DNA from: an uncultured Bacteroidales bacterium
Lineage (GTDB): Bacteria; Bacteroidota; Bacteroidia; Bacteroidales; Bacteroidaceae
NCBI GenBank assembly: GCA_902798615.1
Contig: CADBXL010000013.1
Span: forward strand, 107,378 to 171,377
Length of the DNA: 64,000 nucleotides
Direction of reading: 5' to 3'
The position numbers and the translations under genes were made by a program. Below are positions 34,187 through 60,036 of this stretch, in pieces (positions within the stretch are counted from its first letter, which is position 1; the number at the start of each line of letters is the position of its first letter). The notes beneath the pieces are model-generated. The model ran no database searches, was not told where the DNA came from, and worked only from the letters and a program-made list of their open reading frames with translations.

Positions 34187-34229
34187 GGCCTCTCCCCCCG
34201 CCCTCTCCCGTAGAGAGGGAGCCGGAAGG
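34187..34229. repeat. Type D palindromic repeat, copy 1
   Basis: GCCTCTCC...GCCCTCTCCCGTAGAGAGG...GCCGGAA begins 6 bp after the porin stop codon. A second copy with the same orientation is at 37002-37047. Confidence 0.75.
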
Positions 34230-34286
34230 AACAGAATGGGGAGGCATAATATTATGTCGACAAAACAACAAATTAAATAACTAAAA

Positions 34287-34362
34287 CAAAAAACAGTTTC
34301 ACCCCGCTGACAAAAGTAGAAACTACTCCCCTCCCTTTATGGGAGGGGTAAGGGGGTGGGTC
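34287..34362. repeat. Type A palindromic repeat with 36-bp left extension
   Basis: The core palindrome is 34323-34362. The extended sequence from 34287 (AACAGTTTCACCCCGCTGAC) matches the reverse complement of 45136-45210 almost throughout. It ends 3 bp before the symporter ATG. Confidence 0.8.
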
Positions 34363-45130: not shown

Positions 45131-45135
45131 ATAAA

Positions 45136-45320
45136 GACCCACCCCCTTACCCCTCCCATAAAGGGAGGGGAGTAGTTACCACCTTTGTCAGCGGGGTGAA
45201 ACTGTTTTTGTTCATTTATTGTATTTAAGAACTTTACAAGAATAGCCTTTTCCCTTCCCTATTTGCGTTTATCACACTATCTACTCCCTCCCCTTTATGG
45301 GGAGGGCTGGGGAGGGGTCT
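45136..45320. repeat. Inverted pair of type A palindromic repeats
   Basis: Copy 45136-45175 (with an extension to 45210 matching 34287-34362 inverted) and copy 45281-45320 face each other in the gap between paaK copy 2 and the aminotransferase gene. Confidence 0.8.
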
Positions 45321-45349
45321 TCCTTTGTGAGTGGCTAGGAGGCTGTCTT

Positions 45350-46662: not shown

Positions 46663-46811
46663 GCCTAACCAAGCCTTCCCAAATGGAAGGATGTTTTATA
46701 CACATAAAACCTTCAGGAAGGCTTGGCTAAATAAATTTATTAGTATAATGTTTCTTTTAATTTGCAAGACCATCTAACATCCTTCCCTTTGGGAAGGCTT
46801 GGTTAGGCTTT
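46663..46811. repeat. Gene-less group of type C palindromes (paired ends)
   Basis: Copy 46663-46700, an inverted partial copy 46703-46728, and an inverted full copy 46774-46811 (AAGCCTTCCC...GGGAAGGATG core). The right end abuts the iorB stop codon and the left end lies 5 bp before the paaK start. Confidence 0.8.
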
Positions 46812-47382
46812 ACTTATTTCTTACTCCTTCATCAAACGCCTTGAGGTTAGCCTCTATCACAGCCTCCCCCTTACGGGCAAAGACAACAGCAATAGCCGCA
46901 CGAAGCTGCTCGACGGTAAGGATTTCAATATAAGGAGCAGCCATACCGAGAAGCACCATATTAGCGCCACGAGGGTTGCCTGCTTCCTTTGCCACAGTAT
47001 CAATATCGAGCTTGGCCACAGAAGGAAGGCTATTAAGTTCTGCCTGAAGAGCATCCTCGTCAGGATAGTTTGGGATATTGACGAATGGCTTACTTGCGGT
47101 CACAACCGTGCCCTTCTTTGAGAGATAAGGCATATAACGGAGAGCCTCCATTGGTTCCATAGAGATGACAACATCTGCACCTCCGAGTGAGATAAGGTCC
47201 GAGTAGATTGGCTCGGTGCTGAGACGCAGATTTGACTGCACGTCACCACCTCTCTGACTCATTCCGTGAACCTCTGCCTGCTTCAGATACAAGCCTGCCT
47301 TAGTTGCAGCCTCACCTATGATTGTAGCGATAGAGAGGATACCTTGTCCTCCCACACCGCAGAGAATAATGTCTTTTTTCAT
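46810..47382 (-). CDS. iorB: Indolepyruvate ferredoxin oxidoreductase, beta subunit
   Basis: 190 aa, gamma-type domain of the 2-oxoacid:ferredoxin oxidoreductase family. N-terminus IILCGVGGQGILSIATIIGE (about 4-23) and AEVHGMSQRGGDVQSNLRLS (about 37-56) are typical. With IorA it converts arylpyruvates to aryl-acetyl-CoA, reducing ferredoxin. In most genomes iorB follows iorA directly; here a DUF559 element (47388-47902) lies between them and ends 5 bp before the iorB start, so it must also supply the ribosome-binding region. Confidence 0.94.
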   Translation of the reverse strand: MKKDIILCGVGGQGILSIATIIGEAATKAGLYLKQAEVHGMSQRGGDVQSNLRLSTEPIYSDLISLGGADVVISMEPMEALRYMPYLSKKGTVVTASKPFVNIPNYPDEDALQAELNSLPSVAKLDIDTVAKEAGNPRGANMVLLGMAAPYIEILTVEQLRAAIAVVFARKGEAVIEANLKAFDEGVRNK

Positions 47383-47387
47383 AAATT

Positions 47388-47902
47388 AAGCCCCCTATCC
47401 CCCCAAGGGGGAATTTTTTATATAGTATTATCGCTTATAGGAGGCTGGTTTAGCGATTTTATTGAATATTTTGTCTAATACTTCAGGCAAGTTTCGGAAT
47501 ATTTCATCATTGGAAAGCCTCATAACCTCAAACCCCATCTTTTCAAGATCCTCGGTTCTGAGATAATCCTTGATTTTCTGTTCCTCTTGCGAATGGTAGC
47601 CACCATCGATCTCAATAATAAGATTACGCTTGACACAGATGAAATCCGCGATATAACATCCTATGATATGCTGTCGTCGGAAGTGAAGCCCTAAGTGATT
47701 TCCCGATAAATGATACCAGAGATTCTTTTCAGCTTCCGTCTGATTATACCGATTCTTATAGGCATATCGTTTCAACAAATCATAATACAAAGGATTTGCA
47801 GTATTCCAATGGCGATTTACGTTGTTATCTCCCATAAGACTCGTTTCAAACGTTTATCTTACTATAAAAATCACTCCCCCTTGGGGGGCTGGGGGGCTTT
47901 TT
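47388..47902. mobile_element. DUF559 element with type B palindromic ends, 515 bp
   Basis: The left end 47388-47430 and right end 47861-47902 are inverted copies of one sequence: AAGCCCCC...CCCCCCAAGGGGGA, then a T-rich stretch and TATAGTA. A DUF559 nuclease gene is the only content. The element separates iorA from iorB and provides the last codons of iorA (EKAPQPPKGE, stop). No target duplication is obvious. Confidence 0.75.
47428..47835 (-). CDS. DUF559 (Vsr-like) endonuclease-fold protein, copy 1
   Basis: 135 aa. The DUF559 domain (about 30-120) belongs to the PD-(D/E)xK nuclease group related to very-short-patch repair enzymes: QTEAEKNLWYHLSGNHLGLH, FRRQHIIGCYIADF, then LIIEIDGGYHSQEEQ with candidate active-site Asp/Glu residues, and DYLRTEDLEKMGFEVMRLSN. 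It is about 60% identical by eye to copy 2 (57782-58162). It is bounded on both sides by inverted palindromes and its last codons overlap an internal half-palindrome. Biological role not established; processing of the flanking repeats is a hypothesis. Confidence 0.88.
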   Translation of the reverse strand: MGDNNVNRHWNTANPLYYDLLKRYAYKNRYNQTEAEKNLWYHLSGNHLGLHFRRQHIIGCYIADFICVKRNLIIEIDGGYHSQEEQKIKDYLRTEDLEKMGFEVMRLSNDEIFRNLPEVLDKIFNKIAKPASYKR

Positions 47903-49484
47903 CTTTTGCCTTCTGCCTTGCCTTACGACTTGCTGTCTGAATGCACTCACGACGTGGTATGATTACACTAACACCTTCGTACGCAAGTTCTTTGCGAATC
48001 AAATCTGCTATGGCAGGAATATTCTTTGGGAGAGGAGTTACAACGTGAAGATGCTCTGGATCCATACCAAGACCGAGACAGATAGCCTCGAACTTATTGG
48101 TACCAGCACTATCCTGACCACCAGTCATACCAGTGGTGAGGTTATCAGAAATGATTACCGTGATAGGAGAATTATCGTTTATGGCATCAAGCAAACCCGT
48201 CATACCAGAGTGGGTGAATGTCGAGTCACCAATGATAGCGATTGAAGGACGAAGACCTGCATCGGCTGCACCCTTAGCCATAGTGATAGAAGCACCCATA
48301 TCCACACAAGAAGCGAGAGCCTTGAATGGAGGCAAAGCACCGAGAGTATAGCAACCGATATCACCGAATACGCGGGCATCCTCAAACTCATCAATAATCT
48401 GACGCAATGCAGCATAAACATCTCTATGGCCGCAACCCTGACAAAGCTGTGGAGGACGTGCAGCAAGATTCTTTGCAGGAGCAAAGCCCTCTGGAAGTTC
48501 TACACCAAGTGCCTTTGCTACGCTATCAGGAGTAAGTTCACCATAGCGAGGAAGGTCACCAGTATAGCGTCCCTTTATAGGAGCAACATCACCGATGATA
48601 CGACGTGCCTCTTCCTCTACAACAGGCTGACCATCCTCAACAACGAGGATTTCGTCACACTCCTTTGCAAGCTGCATAACCTTCTCTGCTGGCAATGGAT
48701 ACTGTGAAATCTTGAGGATATTGGCATTGTCACCAACAGCTTCCTTTACATAGTTATAACCGATACCGCAGGCAATAACACCAAGTTTCTTGTCAGCGAC
48801 TGTTTCTACCTTATTATAAATAGACTTCTCAGAAGCCTCTATCATAGCAGGCTGCTTGTCGATAAGAGCAGCATACTTTTTCTTTGCAATACCAGGAAGA
48901 AGAACCCACTGGTCAGTAGATGCGTTCATCTTGTTCTCATTGAGAAGCTCACCAGTCTCAACACCTGCACGACTATGAGCCAGACGGGTAACGATACGCA
49001 GAACAACTGGTTCCTTGATAGCCTCAGAATACTCAAAGGCTGTCTTCATCATATCGTATGCCTCCTGCTGATTAGAAGGCTCGAAAGCAGGAATCATAGC
49101 AAACTTTGCATAGAAACGTGAATCCTGCTCATTCTGACTTGAATGCATTGAAGGGTCGTCGGCAGCAAGCACGATAAGACCGCCATTAACACCTGTGATA
49201 GCAGAATTAACGAATGCATCGGCACAAACATTCATACCAACATGTTTCATGCACACAAGAGCACGCTTACCAGCATAAGACATTCCGAGAGCAGCCTCCA
49301 TAGCTGTCTTCTCATTAGTACACCAACGGCTATGCACACCACGCTGCTTCGCGATGTCATTGCCCTGGATAAATTCCGTGATCTCAGTACTTGGAGTACC
49401 AGGATAAGCATACACACCACTAAGTCCGGCATGGATAGCTCCCAAGGCAATAGCCTCGTCGCCGAGCAACAATTTCTTACTCAT
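47871..49484 (-). CDS. iorA: Indolepyruvate ferredoxin oxidoreductase, alpha subunit
   Basis: 537 aa thiamine-diphosphate enzyme. The N-terminal pyrimidine-binding part starts LLLGDEAIALGAIHAGLSGV and AYPGTPSTEITEF; the TPP-binding part has LCQGCGHRDVYAAL (about 348-361), GDIGCYTLGALPPF and SDNLTTGMTGGQDS (about 455-468). There is no C-terminal 8-Cys ferredoxin domain, unlike archaeal IorA; I am unsure whether that is normal in this lineage. The last ten residues (EKAPQPPKGE) come from the inserted palindrome. Promoter at 49524-49531. Confidence 0.94.
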   Translation of the reverse strand: MSKKLLLGDEAIALGAIHAGLSGVYAYPGTPSTEITEFIQGNDIAKQRGVHSRWCTNEKTAMEAALGMSYAGKRALVCMKHVGMNVCADAFVNSAITGVNGGLIVLAADDPSMHSSQNEQDSRFYAKFAMIPAFEPSNQQEAYDMMKTAFEYSEAIKEPVVLRIVTRLAHSRAGVETGELLNENKMNASTDQWVLLPGIAKKKYAALIDKQPAMIEASEKSIYNKVETVADKKLGVIACGIGYNYVKEAVGDNANILKISQYPLPAEKVMQLAKECDEILVVEDGQPVVEEEARRIIGDVAPIKGRYTGDLPRYGELTPDSVAKALGVELPEGFAPAKNLAARPPQLCQGCGHRDVYAALRQIIDEFEDARVFGDIGCYTLGALPPFKALASCVDMGASITMAKGAADAGLRPSIAIIGDSTFTHSGMTGLLDAINDNSPITVIISDNLTTGMTGGQDSAGTNKFEAICLGLGMDPEHLHVVTPLPKNIPAIADLIRKELAYEGVSVIIPRRECIQTASRKARQKAKEKAPQPPKGE

Positions 49485-56166: not shown

Positions 56167-57717
56167 CTATTTACGATTTTTCTCCCACTCAACCCACTCT
56201 TTCATGGGTAGTTCCTTTGGGAAAAGTGTAGAGAAAATTGTCATTGTGTCTGTAGGATTCGTATCTATCGCCTTTGCCAAGGCTTCGAGATATTCCTCAC
56301 GATGATTTGTCTTCATTGCGGCATAGGCAAGACGCTCGTAACCTGACTCCATTTCAACGCCGCATTCCGTTAGGATTCTCCTGGTCTCAGACAACACTTG
56401 ATATCCTACCTCAAAAGCGCTGGCGTCAACAAACATACAACCAATCTTAATATATGTCTGAGGATCATTATCCGTTTTCGCAAGAGCCTGATTGAAATAA
56501 TCATATGCCCCTTGCATATCGTGCTGTTCAAGCTTTATTCCACCGCGAAGAAGCAAGACCTTATACTCTGCTATTCCGCACATTTCAAGTCTGTCAGCAT
56601 AGAACATTGCATCACCATCTTTCCCTTGTGCAGCAGCTATATATGCAGCTTGACGATATATCTCCATCCTCACTACTTCGGGAACAGAACCGTCAAGATC
56701 GTCACGTTCATTCTCTAGTGCAAAGATTGCCTCCTGAATATGTGATTCTGCATTCGCATAGTCTTCCATAGCGAAAAGTACAGAGGCGAGAAGCACTTCT
56801 CCCTGCACATCAAAAGGAACAAGAGTGAGATAGTACTTGAAAGCCTCCATAGCCCCTTCATTATCGCCAAGTGCAAAAAGACAGTTTCCTTTGCTGAGAT
56901 AGACCTCCGAGAGGTTAGGTTGTATAGCCTCTGCATATTCCGCACTTTGAAGAGCATCATACGTTAGCCCGAGATGATACTGACATTGTGCCAACTGAAG
57001 CCAAGCCATTAGCGAATAGGCATCCACATCGATGCTCTTATTCCAATATTCTATTGCCTCAGAATACTGTTCTCTGGCTGTCAGAATCCTTGCCTTTGCC
57101 TCCAGATAGTCACCTTCCTCATAATAAGCCTCGTCTGACACCCTTGAGAGCCAGTAGTCAGCATATTCCCATTGACGATAATCGCACATAAGAAGCGCGA
57201 CATCAAGCACATAGTCGTTAAAGATATCAGAAGGAGAACTCTCCTCTTCCTCCTCATCGTCATCATCTGCAAATGCGGGTCCGAGGTCTTCAGTTTCTGC
57301 ATCCTCAATAGATTCATCAGGAAGTTCTGGACATTTTTCCACGAGCAATTTCTGAGCATCCTCCGCCTTTTCACGGAAAAGCATGATCTCTGCCCTTAGA
57401 TAGATAGCATCCACAATTTCAGCATCTACAAGCAGTCTTGAGATATTCTCTGCCTCTTCTATCCTATCACTCATGATAGCCGTACGGGCTTTGAACACCA
57501 ATCCTTTCTCATTGTCAGGGAATAGCGAGAGGAGGTAGTCAACCACCTTTCCCGCCATCGGCTCGTCACCCTTCACGTGGAAGTACTCGGCAACGTCCAC
57601 AAGATCATCAGCGTCGAAGTATTCTCCGGCGCCATGTTCAATAGCCTCCTGTACCTTCGCAAGGAGAGTCTTGAACTCATTAGATCTTATGTAACGTTGA
57701 AAATCGGAAGGGATCAT
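56167..57717 (-). CDS. Tetratricopeptide-repeat protein (516 aa)
   Basis: No signal peptide. About ten TPR-like repeats from residue 55 to 510, for example AIEYWNKSIDVDAYSLMAWL and YDALQSAEYAEAIQPNLSEV; an acidic insertion (AFADDDDEEEEESSPSDIFN) lies at about 147-166. Such cytosolic TPR proteins act as scaffolds in Bacteroidetes; the partner is unknown. The DUF559 element (57718-58230) begins immediately upstream of the ATG, so its 5' region has been replaced. Confidence 0.88.
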   Translation of the reverse strand: MIPSDFQRYIRSNEFKTLLAKVQEAIEHGAGEYFDADDLVDVAEYFHVKGDEPMAGKVVDYLLSLFPDNEKGLVFKARTAIMSDRIEEAENISRLLVDAEIVDAIYLRAEIMLFREKAEDAQKLLVEKCPELPDESIEDAETEDLGPAFADDDDEEEEESSPSDIFNDYVLDVALLMCDYRQWEYADYWLSRVSDEAYYEEGDYLEAKARILTAREQYSEAIEYWNKSIDVDAYSLMAWLQLAQCQYHLGLTYDALQSAEYAEAIQPNLSEVYLSKGNCLFALGDNEGAMEAFKYYLTLVPFDVQGEVLLASVLFAMEDYANAESHIQEAIFALENERDDLDGSVPEVVRMEIYRQAAYIAAAQGKDGDAMFYADRLEMCGIAEYKVLLLRGGIKLEQHDMQGAYDYFNQALAKTDNDPQTYIKIGCMFVDASAFEVGYQVLSETRRILTECGVEMESGYERLAYAAMKTNHREEYLEALAKAIDTNPTDTMTIFSTLFPKELPMKEWVEWEKNRK

Positions 57718-58230
57718 AAGCCCACCCAGGCCCTCCCAAAGGGAGGGATGCGATATAGTCTGGATATAACGCGCCTTTCACTCAAGAAGGCCTGGCTATT
57801 GCATTAAAAATCTGATCTAAAACAAAGACAACATTTGAATATATATCCTCGTTCCTAAACCTTAACATCTTAAAACCAAGACTTTCCAATTTTTCAGTTC
57901 TATAATAGTCTTTTATGGCTTGAGCATACTGAGAATGATACCCACCATCAACCTCTATTATTATTTTTTTCTTCAGACAAACAAAATCGGCTATATAGCA
58001 ACCAATAATATGCTGCCTTCGGAAATGAAGCCCCAACTTATTACCACGAAGATGTAACCACAACATTTTTTCTGCCTCCGTTTGGTATTTCTTATTTTCA
58101 GAGGCATATACCTTAAGCAATCCATAATAGGATGGATCTGAGGTATCGTAGTCATAAGCCATATAGAACCTATACGATTAGAAAATCTATAAAACATCCT
58201 TCCCTTTGGGAAGGCTTGGTTAGGCTTTTT
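57718..58230. mobile_element. DUF559 element with type C palindromic ends, 513 bp
   Basis: The left end 57718-57758 and right end 58187-58230 are inverted copies (AAGCC...CC...TCCCAAAGGGA...GGATG...TATAG). An internal inverted half-copy (57761-57799) overlaps the nuclease stop codon. The element abuts the ATG of the TPR gene at one end and the glnS stop codon at the other. Confidence 0.75.
57782..58162 (-). CDS. DUF559 (Vsr-like) endonuclease-fold protein, copy 2
   Basis: 126 aa. Same domain and order as copy 1: QTEAEKMLWLHLRGNKLGLH, FRRQHIIGCYIADF, IIIEVDGGYHSQYAQAIKDY, then RTEKLESLGFKMLRFRNEDI. The last codons (ARPS, stop) are encoded by a half-palindrome. It lies between glnS and a TPR gene, a quite different site from copy 1, which argues for movement with the palindromes. 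Role not established. Confidence 0.88.
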   Translation of the reverse strand: MAYDYDTSDPSYYGLLKVYASENKKYQTEAEKMLWLHLRGNKLGLHFRRQHIIGCYIADFVCLKKKIIIEVDGGYHSQYAQAIKDYYRTEKLESLGFKMLRFRNEDIYSNVVFVLDQIFNAIARPS

Positions 58231-59983
58231 ACTTGCTACTCTTCAACCCCACCGTCTTATTGAAAACAAGATGCTCGGCTGTTGAATCGGTATCAACATT
58301 ATAGTAGCCGATACGCTGGAACTGGAGATAGTCGAGAGGCTTGGCGTTAGTGAGCCATTTCTCAACGTAGGCTGTCTTGATTTCAAGAGAGTTAGGGTTG
58401 ATGAAATGACGCATATCCTCTATGTCTATACGCTCCTTACCAAGACTCTTTGAGTAGTTGGCAACCTCATCGCGTGGGTTCTCTACCATCCACAAGCGGT
58501 CATAGTTCCTTACCTCTGCCTCTACGCAATGGTCAACGCTTACCCAGTGGATTGTCTTACCCTTGATCTTCATATTAGCATTTGCCTCTCCTGTCTTTGT
58601 TTCAGGAATAAACTCTGCATGAATCTCAACGATATTGCCCTCTGCATCCTTAACGATACACTCCTCCGGATTCTCTGAGCACTTGATGATATAGGCATTC
58701 TTCAAACGAACCTCCTTGCCAGGACCAAGACGGAAGAACTTCTTCGGAGCATCCTCCATGAAGTCGTCGCGCTCAATCCAAAGGTTACGAGAGAATGTTA
58801 TCTCGTGCGTACCGCTATTCTCGTCCTCTGGGTTATTGATAGCCGTAAGTTCCTCTGTCTTGCCTTCCGGATAGTTGGTAATGACGAGCTTCACAGGATC
58901 AATAACAGCACTTACGCGAGTTGCGCGTGTATTAAGGTCCTCACGGATAGCGCTTTCCATAAGAGCCATCTCGTTGAGAGCATCGAATGTTGTATAGCCA
59001 ATCTTGTCAATAAACTTCAGAATTCCCTCTGGAGAATAGCCTCTGCGACGGAAACCGCATATTGTTGGCATACGAGGATCATCCCAGCCTGCAACAACAC
59101 CTTCCTTCACGAGCATAAGAAGGTTACGCTTTGAGAGAAGGATATGAGTGAGGTTGAGCTTATTGAACTCTGTCTGACGTGGACGGTTATCATCCAAAGG
59201 CTTATCATCGCCAGCCACTTCCTTTGCCCAGTCAACAAACAGGTCATAGAGCGGACGATGGCTAACGAATTCCAATGTGCAGAGTGAGTGTGTCACGCCC
59301 TCCCAGTAGTCACACTGTCCGTGGGTATAGTCATACATAGGATAGGCATTCCACTTATTGCCTGTTCTCCAATGAGGCATATTGAGCACACGATACATGA
59401 TTGGATCGCGGAAATGCATATTAGGACTTGCCATATCAATCTTGGCACGGAGAACCATCTTTCCCGGCTCCATATTGCCTGAGTTCATCTCCTCGAAGAG
59501 AGCAAGACTCTCCTCTACCGGACGGTCACGATATGGTGAGTTCTGACCTGGCTGAGTAGGGGTTCCCTTCTGTGCGGCAATCTGCTCAGCGGTCTGCTCG
59601 TCAACGTATGCCCTGCCACGCTTGATAAGCTCTACGGCGAGGTCCCAGAGCTTCTGGAAATAGTCAGAAGCGTAGAGGATATTGCCCCACTTGAAGCCGA
59701 GCCACTCAATATCGCGCTTGATAGCCTCTACATACTCCGTGTCCTCTTTCTGAGGATTGGTATCATCCATACGAAGGTTACAAACGCCACCATATTTCTG
59801 TGCTATGCCGAAATCAAGTGCAATAGCCTTGGCATGACCGATATGCAGATAGCCGTTAGGCTCTGGTGGGAAACGGGTCTGCAACCGACCGCCATTCTTA
59901 CCTTCTGCAAGGTCGTTCTCCACTTTCTGCTCTATGAAATTGAGGCTCTTCTTCTCTTCCTCATTCTTTATTTCTTCTGCCAT
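58229..59983 (-). CDS. glnS: Glutaminyl-tRNA synthetase
   Basis: 584 aa from ATG 59983 (MAEEIKNEEEKKSLNFIEQK); an in-frame ATG eleven codons upstream is less likely. Class I synthetase that charges tRNA-Gln. The HIGH motif is PPEPNGYLHIGHAKAI (about 36-51); the KMSKS-equivalent is HILLSKRNLLML (about 262-273); GWDDPRMPTICGFRRRGYSP is conserved in GlnRS. The stop codon touches the end of the DUF559 element. Promoter at 60037-60044. Confidence 0.97.
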   Translation of the reverse strand: MAEEIKNEEEKKSLNFIEQKVENDLAEGKNGGRLQTRFPPEPNGYLHIGHAKAIALDFGIAQKYGGVCNLRMDDTNPQKEDTEYVEAIKRDIEWLGFKWGNILYASDYFQKLWDLAVELIKRGRAYVDEQTAEQIAAQKGTPTQPGQNSPYRDRPVEESLALFEEMNSGNMEPGKMVLRAKIDMASPNMHFRDPIMYRVLNMPHWRTGNKWNAYPMYDYTHGQCDYWEGVTHSLCTLEFVSHRPLYDLFVDWAKEVAGDDKPLDDNRPRQTEFNKLNLTHILLSKRNLLMLVKEGVVAGWDDPRMPTICGFRRRGYSPEGILKFIDKIGYTTFDALNEMALMESAIREDLNTRATRVSAVIDPVKLVITNYPEGKTEELTAINNPEDENSGTHEITFSRNLWIERDDFMEDAPKKFFRLGPGKEVRLKNAYIIKCSENPEECIVKDAEGNIVEIHAEFIPETKTGEANANMKIKGKTIHWVSVDHCVEAEVRNYDRLWMVENPRDEVANYSKSLGKERIDIEDMRHFINPNSLEIKTAYVEKWLTNAKPLDYLQFQRIGYYNVDTDSTAEHLVFNKTVGLKSSK

Positions 59984-60036
59984 ATATTGTTGTTGTTTTA
60001 TTTCCTTATTATACACTGTGGATTGCTATTTTACTG

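Follow-up and report, generated by a model that had tools for sequence, protein, structure and literature searches.

A DUF559 nuclease gene with inverted palindromic ends, inserted between iorA and iorB in a Bacteroidaceae genome, as a candidate selfish unit

Introduction

How did a small nuclease gene come to lie between the two genes of indolepyruvate oxidoreductase, and why do inverted copies of one GC-rich palindrome stand on either side of it? The question is raised by a stretch of 64,000 nucleotides (nt) from an uncultured Bacteroidales bacterium of the Bacteroidaceae (assembly GCA_902798615.1, contig CADBXL010000013.1, positions 107,378 to 171,377), which was analysed at its full length and is called the window here. 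The gene belongs to the DUF559 family. We describe its insertion together with its ends and the association of such ends with DUF559 genes in other genomes. We estimate at roughly 0.7 the probability that the DUF559 gene forms a single selfish unit with its two inverted palindromic ends and, as such, represents a repeat family in its gene-bearing form. In the best reading of the data, DUF559 would be the cognate enzyme of these repeats, in parallel to the REPIN-RAYT system and built from unrelated parts.

Results

The element at the iorA-iorB junction

On the minus strand, the gene order is iorA (47871-49484), DUF559 (47428-47835) and iorB (46810-47382). The indolepyruvate oxidoreductase alpha gene, iorA, was identified by TIGR03336 (E 6e-157, yet under the curated cut-off of this model), the beta gene, iorB, by NF005324 (above the cut-off), and the DUF559 gene, which encodes 135 amino acids (aa), by PF04480 (E 2.8e-32). 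An inverted-repeat search found two arms of 40 nt each, at 47388-47427 on the iorB side and at 47860-47899 on the iorA side, which are 85% complementary and have 432 nt between them; the sole gene between the arms is DUF559. The left end consists of an outer C arm, the hairpin TCCCCCC-AA-GGGGGA and the inner sequence TTTATATAGTA, and the right end is inverted relative to it. The flank inverted repeat of this element scored 50, and the maximum among 457 control open reading frames (ORFs) of other genomes was 42. The window contains 10 C-arm/G-arm hairpins with a stem of 6 or more, versus 0 in 20 mononucleotide shuffles.

A first-pass annotation, made from the sequence of the window, had described inverted copies of a GC-rich palindrome enclosing a DUF559 gene alone, placed between iorA and iorB, and both statements agree with the arms and the profile matches given above. 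Its proposal that the left end had become the upstream region of iorB also holds, as the element stops 5 nt ahead of the iorB start. The right end was said to form the last ten codons of iorA; comparison of the tail with relatives and inspection confirmed an end-derived tail, ...KEK-APQPPKGE-stop, but what the element provides is the stop and the 8 codons before it.

Insertion between iorA and iorB

To place the junction among relatives, 100 genomes of the genus were searched for iorB. Ninety-four matched, and the best 30 places were read as loci, namely the window, L054 (at a contig end, with no iorA) and 28 relatives with both genes. As these relatives are species and not strains, the comparison does not define the target to the base. 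Measured from where the iorA alignment ends, iorB was 492 nt away in the window and 9-69 nt away in 24 of the 28 relatives, gaps too small for the gene, and DUF559 is therefore absent from those junctions. Longer distances were found in L077 (146 nt), L056 (206 nt), L078 (181 nt) and L061 (624 nt). Three DUF559 queries gave no credible tblastn match in the L056 and L061 junctions (best E 0.24). The L078 junction, when read, held three gene-less palindromes of another type, without DUF559, which are an independent arrival at the same place. The segment is thus not shared by all relatives at this position, DUF559 being absent from 28 of the 28 junctions read. The DUF559 gene and its ends are one insertion between iorA and iorB.

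As a separate observation, the 624 nt between iorA and iorB in L061 contained no long C-run/G-run palindrome. The genomes G146 and G132, which share 94-96% identical DNA, were considered as proof of an empty site and rejected; palindrome sites turn over between them but are composite, with no clean empty site.

Ends of DUF559 genes across the genus and other lineages

DUF559 is present in 121 of 200 genomes of the genus. The 37 loci read comprised 8 from the genome of the window and 29 from others, the latter being the best-scoring matches of their genomes and not a random draw. Among the 30 short genes (up to 180 aa), an inverted repeat in the flanks reached a score of at least 30 in 27 and at least 40 in 24. 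Longer proteins (over 180 aa) gave one positive in seven at a score of 30 (L026), and the control ORFs in the same loci none in 25. A scan of named genomes confirmed at least 576 relatives, and the best 80 were kept; 8 of these were too close to a contig end and 72 were scored. Within these best loci, 67 of 72 genes were positive at a score of 30 versus 29 of 457 control ORFs, and 58 versus 2 at the stricter score of 40. Most of the 80 loci come from genomes labelled Proteobacteria, with single members labelled Chloroflexi, Omnitrophota, Kapabacteria and Desantisbacteria (metagenome assemblies). In the family of L092, 17 of 19 DUF559 loci were positive at a score of 30, and 14 of 16 when three loci chosen for visible palindromes were left out. 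From a plasmid collection with 38 DUF559 records, 8 were read; in the cyanobacterial L042 and the Deinococcus L044 (60-nt arms), the gene is seen by eye to lie between palindromes. In Sphingomonas (L043), a transhydrogenase operon is split by the DUF559 gene, whose C-terminus extends through a palindrome, as does, by eye, that of YcjD of Escherichia coli in L038. The counts of 67/72 and 27/30 against those of the controls show that DUF559 genes elsewhere are bracketed much more frequently than control ORFs.

The two ends of one DUF559 gene tend to be more like one another than like the ends of different genes. The true downstream end ranked first for 16 of the 30 genus genes and for 22 of the 72 scan genes, with about 1 expected by chance in each set. 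The layout common to 53 genus ends, to which there are exceptions, is AAGCC-(C arm)-2 nt-(C stem)-loop-(G stem)-AGTAGTTAGT. Its final motif is found again and again with different stems, and the first three positions of this motif are A in 73%, G in 71% and T in 55% of these ends. A three-arm C-G-G (or C-C-G) layout, capable of forming a triplex, was found in the 53 ends by eye and without a null model. The window end reads CCCCC-TT-GGGGGG-CT-GGGGGG.

Gene-bearing and gene-less copies in the same genome

A family search of the genome of the window returned 10 rows, corresponding to 9 DUF559 genes, and all nine have inverted palindromic ends (scores 37-87 for eight genes and 62 for the ninth). 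These ends vary between genes, while the two ends of one gene are alike.

The palindrome CCCCCNAGGGGG occurs 75 times in this genome and its reversed pattern 0 times. Seventeen close inverted pairs without a gene were visible among these occurrences, giving 34 ends, with spans of 57-152 nt. Twelve of the pairs match the ends of the window element at scores of 46-73, and the other five, the CCCCCGAGGGGG subgroup, at 25-47. When eight element types were compared, the window element was the best for 33 of the 34 ends. Because the pairs had been picked by that palindrome, the test was redone on the inner 40 nt only, with the palindrome masked, and the window element was best for 25 of 34 (6 of the 8 types had a usable stretch). 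From these matches, the gene-less pairs can be read as putative internal-deletion derivatives of the window element. At 13 parsed boundaries of the pairs, three of them apparently mis-parsed, inspection by eye showed no duplicated target sequence of 3 nt or longer.

The DUF559 protein and spread by homing

The assignment of DUF559 to the Vsr/restriction-endonuclease-fold group, also made in the first pass, is supported by the PF04480 match, by structural relatives and by conserved residues. A search with the window protein alone gave 3hrl (E 4e-19) and the mobile intron protein 3r3p (E 0.02). A profile of 8 diverse members gave 3r3p at E 3.8e-6, PvuRts1I at 0.008 and Vsr (1cw0) at 0.99; its match to 3hrl is built in, because the profile holds a Neisseria protein near-identical to 3hrl. 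E36, D64, E75-x-D77-G-x-x-H81 and D90 are invariant in the alignment of the 8 members, and the residues E36, D64, E75, D77, H81 and D90 are presumably catalytic. By profile membership and conserved residues, DUF559 is a predicted Vsr/EDxHD-like PD-(D/E)XK nuclease. No methyltransferase was seen beside the DUF559 gene. Identity with a defence system was considered and rejected; in PADLOC, models of restriction-type and other nucleases were matched in part, at a best E of 1e-6.

Such a nuclease might spread in the manner of homing, cutting intact targets into which gene conversion copies the gene, so that the palindromes would be landing sites or scars and not transposon ends. Homing requires a conserved target around the insert, and by inspection the flanks of the elements in the genome of the window are unrelated. 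The elements are free-standing and intergenic at varied sites, again by inspection, with no intron, intein or conserved homing site. Matching inverted ends within each gene, together with gene-less pairs that have similar ends, are what recognition of the termini predicts. On the side of homing stand the relationship to 3r3p, the location of the elements at or near gene ends, and the filing of a DUF559 gene under the EDxHD homing family (PMC9403480). We regard spread by homing as unlikely.

Palindrome number, DUF559 and Y1/RAYT enzymes

Palindromes of the genus were counted with the pattern CCCCYCCCN{1,6}GGGRGGGG and a threshold of five or more copies. This threshold was reached by 71 of 121 genomes with DUF559 and 11 of 79 without (medians 8 versus 0, p 3e-14, shared ancestry uncorrected); among genomes at least 94% complete, the values were 22/37 and 1/28. 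Seven of the 200 genomes contained the reversed control pattern, none of them more than 5 times per strand. In the family of L092 (198 genomes), five or more TM motifs were present in 70 of 106 genomes with DUF559 versus 4 of 92 without (p 2e-21, shared ancestry uncorrected), and the reversed TM control gave 0 in all genomes. In both of these unrelated samples, the genomes rich in such palindromes are those with DUF559.

In a further alternative, DUF559 would be cargo, and the palindromes would owe their movement to another transposase such as a Y1/RAYT enzyme. The layout is like that of REPIN-RAYT (PMC3116915), and a repeated Legionella segment carries a transposase and a DUF559 gene (PMC12308824). 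Y1_Tnp genes are present in 111 of the 200 genus genomes, and their relation to palindrome number is at most marginal (odds ratio 1.6, p 0.15), with a slight shift in the rank test (p 0.006). Five or more palindromes were found in 45 of 74 genomes with both DUF559 and Y1, 26 of 47 with DUF559 only, 6 of 37 with Y1 only and 5 of 42 with neither. Y1/RAYT thus hardly explains the palindromes in the genus. Control ORFs were also seldom bracketed, which speaks against the cargo role. Two gene-sized palindrome pairs in which DUF559 is lacking, L201 and L205, speak for the cargo role and also count among the points against a selfish unit that are collected in the Discussion. Taken together, it is quite improbable that DUF559 is a mere passenger. 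The associations tested agree with the idea, put forward in the first pass, of REP-like palindromes that a DUF559 protein may mobilise or process.

In L205 (G228 C1 1152400-1154000), the two palindromes are 459 nt apart and one frame is open throughout, over 173 codons.

A caretaker role was also weighed, in which slippage or recombination spreads the palindromes and a Vsr-like DUF559 protein is kept adjacent to repair or trim the structures. The family does belong to a repair-type nuclease group, as a YcjD profile finds Vsr at 1e-5 (PMC1189080). In Caulobacter, VsrA, which has a DUF559 domain, is needed for a DNA-damage response in cells without a certain cytosine methyltransferase (PMC12907096), so a DUF559 member can act in vivo, probably on DNA. 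The Deinococcus radiodurans DUF559 gene DR_0221 is raised when N4-cytosine methylation is lost (PMC6712171), which recalls VsrA, and DUF559 may have a tie to methylation. A caretaker has no need of matched inverted ends at every copy, nor of nine genes with nine end pairs, and the gene and its ends are one block where relatives have neither. This role is thus very improbable.

That the palindromes are insulators, stopping transcription in both directions so that a small transferred gene can reside within an operon, is hardly credible: the elements do stand between genes of the same direction, for instance in ior here and in the transhydrogenase operon of L043, but most window-type palindromes enclose no gene, we know of no role of the third arm in termination, and PIT motifs, as described in the next section, do not favour it.

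BoxC/PIT/TM repeats and E. coli

Repeats of similar layout are known as BoxC, PIT and TM. BoxC was first found in E. coli in the 1990s, and the triplex-capable motif was later reported in more than 260 genomes and tied to local genome instability (PMC4666352). In this report, Holder et al. (2015) found no mobility gene for the repeats and describe PIT motifs as having no terminator activity. It gives the TMECO consensus CCCTCNCCCN3-6GGGNGAGGGN3GGGNGAGGG and lists 23 copies in MG1655. Of 80 DUF559 loci, 22 have the exact TMECO consensus at a distance of up to about 300 nt; it was on both sides in 7, always inverted there. Near DUF559, 30 motifs were counted in 73.9 kb (0.41 per kb), and in the remaining 315 kb there were 11 (0.035 per kb). 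Copy no. 9 in Table 1 of Holder et al. lies between fabI and ycjD, the annotated DUF559 gene of MG1655. By inspection, the ends in the window have the BoxC/PIT/TM layout but not the exact TMECO consensus.

A clean insertion polymorphism of ycjD in E. coli was considered and rejected. In both ycjD-less strains read (L046, L048), a TetR-RND efflux cluster stands beside fabI instead of a clean empty site, so the ycjD locus does not show insertion. This agrees with the placement of an efflux cluster between sapF and fabI (PMC12817139).

Further copies in the window

The window holds a second complete element (L007) at 57718-58227, on the minus strand, with palindromic ends at about 57718-57750 and 58195-58227 and a gene for a 126-aa DUF559 protein at 57782-58162. 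It fills the gap between an ORF of 516 aa (56167-57717) and the ORF at 58229-60016, which we take to be glutaminyl-tRNA synthetase. A solo palindrome at 46778-46810 is an exact copy of the L007 end and touches the stop codon of iorB, so that palindromic DNA lies on both sides of iorB. A gene-less inverted pair, of the type of the L004 ends, spans 45135-45321 (outer limits approximate, by eye), with hairpins at 45150-45170 and 45286-45306 and with matching outer and inner arms. At about 34187-34362, two palindromes of different types, one L002-like and one L004-like, face each other and are perhaps a mosaic of two families. Elsewhere in the genome, the ninth DUF559 gene (L202, G000 C3 114300-116100) contains four in-frame near-repeats, NKSLPTQGGMEGL and variants. 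These look like translated copies of its own palindrome, and the gene itself seems to have been invaded by palindromes.

Discussion

The reading of the DUF559 gene and its ends as one selfish unit can be put as a mechanism. The ends are triplex-capable hairpins, composed of a C arm, a loop, a G arm and a third arm that roughly mirrors the stem, followed in the genus by a motif near AGTAGTTAGT on the gene side. We infer that the nuclease acts on its own ends once these are extruded, recognising them and nicking or cutting there, and that host repair or replication may then copy the released or opened stretch into new intergenic sites. The gene-less pairs would be moved in trans, and the BoxC/PIT/TM repeats of E. 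coli and other bacteria would be non-autonomous members. RIME and Bru-RS repeats were also considered as putative members from Alphaproteobacteria. With somewhat less assurance than for the unit itself, we propose that the BoxC/PIT/TM triplex repeats have their missing cognate enzymes in the DUF559 nucleases, with YcjD in this role for the repeats of E. coli K-12. Repeats and nucleases would then define a second, independent class of selfish DNA made of a palindrome and a nuclease, parallel to REPIN-RAYT, in the Bacteroidota (the lineage of the window), Pseudomonadota, Deinococcota and, by eye, Cyanobacteriota. Such a class would work with one Vsr-like nuclease of about 120 residues and host repair, and no transposase.

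Several observations weigh against this reading. Among the loci, the short DUF559 genes of L017, L021 and L029 in the genus scored below 30, five of the 72 named-genome genes were missed (L159, L094, L096, L116 and L105), L097 reached its score of 30 with a repeat other than a G/C palindrome, and 2 of the 19 short genes in the family of L092 have no inverted repeat. On the eight plasmid-collection loci, the automated score was 98 for L044, the only one above 40, and 19-36 for the others (L039 in the wrong frame). Protein similarity and end similarity are weakly related (rho 0.20, with 79 of 2000 permutations as high). At the level of genomes, a palindrome of the exact pattern is missing from 26 genus genomes with DUF559 and from 16 such genomes in the family of L092, and 11 and 4, respectively, have five or more palindromes and no DUF559 match; the pairs L201 and L205 belong here too. 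Of 5426 E. coli genomes, 3365 contain ycjD and 5100 a match to the ycjD repeat region, so that the repeats also occur where ycjD is missing, and the ycjD-less strains gave the efflux cluster described above. The genomes compared contained no strain-level empty/filled pair with exact ends. As to structure, the window ends as single-stranded DNA fold barely better than shuffles (z -0.7 to -1.5), and Holder et al. observed no stable triplex in vivo (PMC4666352). The third arm is mostly on the gene side in proteobacterial loci (by eye), opposite to the genus, so its orientation relative to the gene is lineage-specific.

In the genome G203 of [Erwinia] mediterraneensis, which contains L105, there are 85 exact matches to the TMECO consensus, many of them in tandem about 53 nt apart, and yet no inverted repeat flanks the DUF559 gene of L105.

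DUF559 is widespread and still carries the name 'unknown function', and the link to BoxC/PIT/TM gives both the family and the repeats a testable job. If true, it would explain DUF559 genes inside operons and add a class of mobile elements moved by means of a single small nuclease. K-12, with ycjD and the 23 listed repeat copies, allows it to be tested. In the part of the open-access literature covered by the searches (subscription journals being outside its scope), no link of DUF559 to palindromic or triplex repeats was found, and a mobile unit of BoxC/PIT/TM-kind repeats with a Vsr/EDxHD-kind protein had no match among the kinds described there.

Among known systems, insertion sequences and miniature inverted-repeat transposable elements resemble the present element in their terminal inverted repeats and in having gene-bearing and deleted short forms; they differ in that no transposase or recombinase lies between the ends in the window. 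The EDxHD/Vsr-like nucleases share the profile matches to 3r3p and 1cw0 and the conserved E, D, ExD, H and D residues, whereas the DUF559 gene in the window is free-standing, outside any intron, and has its own inverted palindromic ends. The likeness to REPIN-RAYT is closer in working: both have short palindromes, inverted doublets, gene-bearing copies beside many gene-less ones, and end types that go with the gene (PMC3116915). Gene-less inverted doublets about 100 nt apart are represented by the 17 pairs, and a gene copy flanked by its own repeat type by nine of nine genes in the genome of the window. A cognate Y1/HUH transposase was not found between the ends, which hold DUF559 alone, a PD-(D/E)XK and not an HUH nuclease, and the ends are of the triplex type; because there is no HUH enzyme, the element falls outside REPIN-RAYT despite its similar working. 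The BoxC/PIT/TM repeats come nearest in the ends themselves. They have the same arm order, C-arm, loop, G-arm, loop and mirrored G-arm, are G/C-rich and intergenic in many genomes, and occur at times as inverted pairs (PMC4666352), TMECO being found near DUF559 loci and ycjD. The motif in the window faces the opposite way relative to the gene from that in proteobacterial loci.
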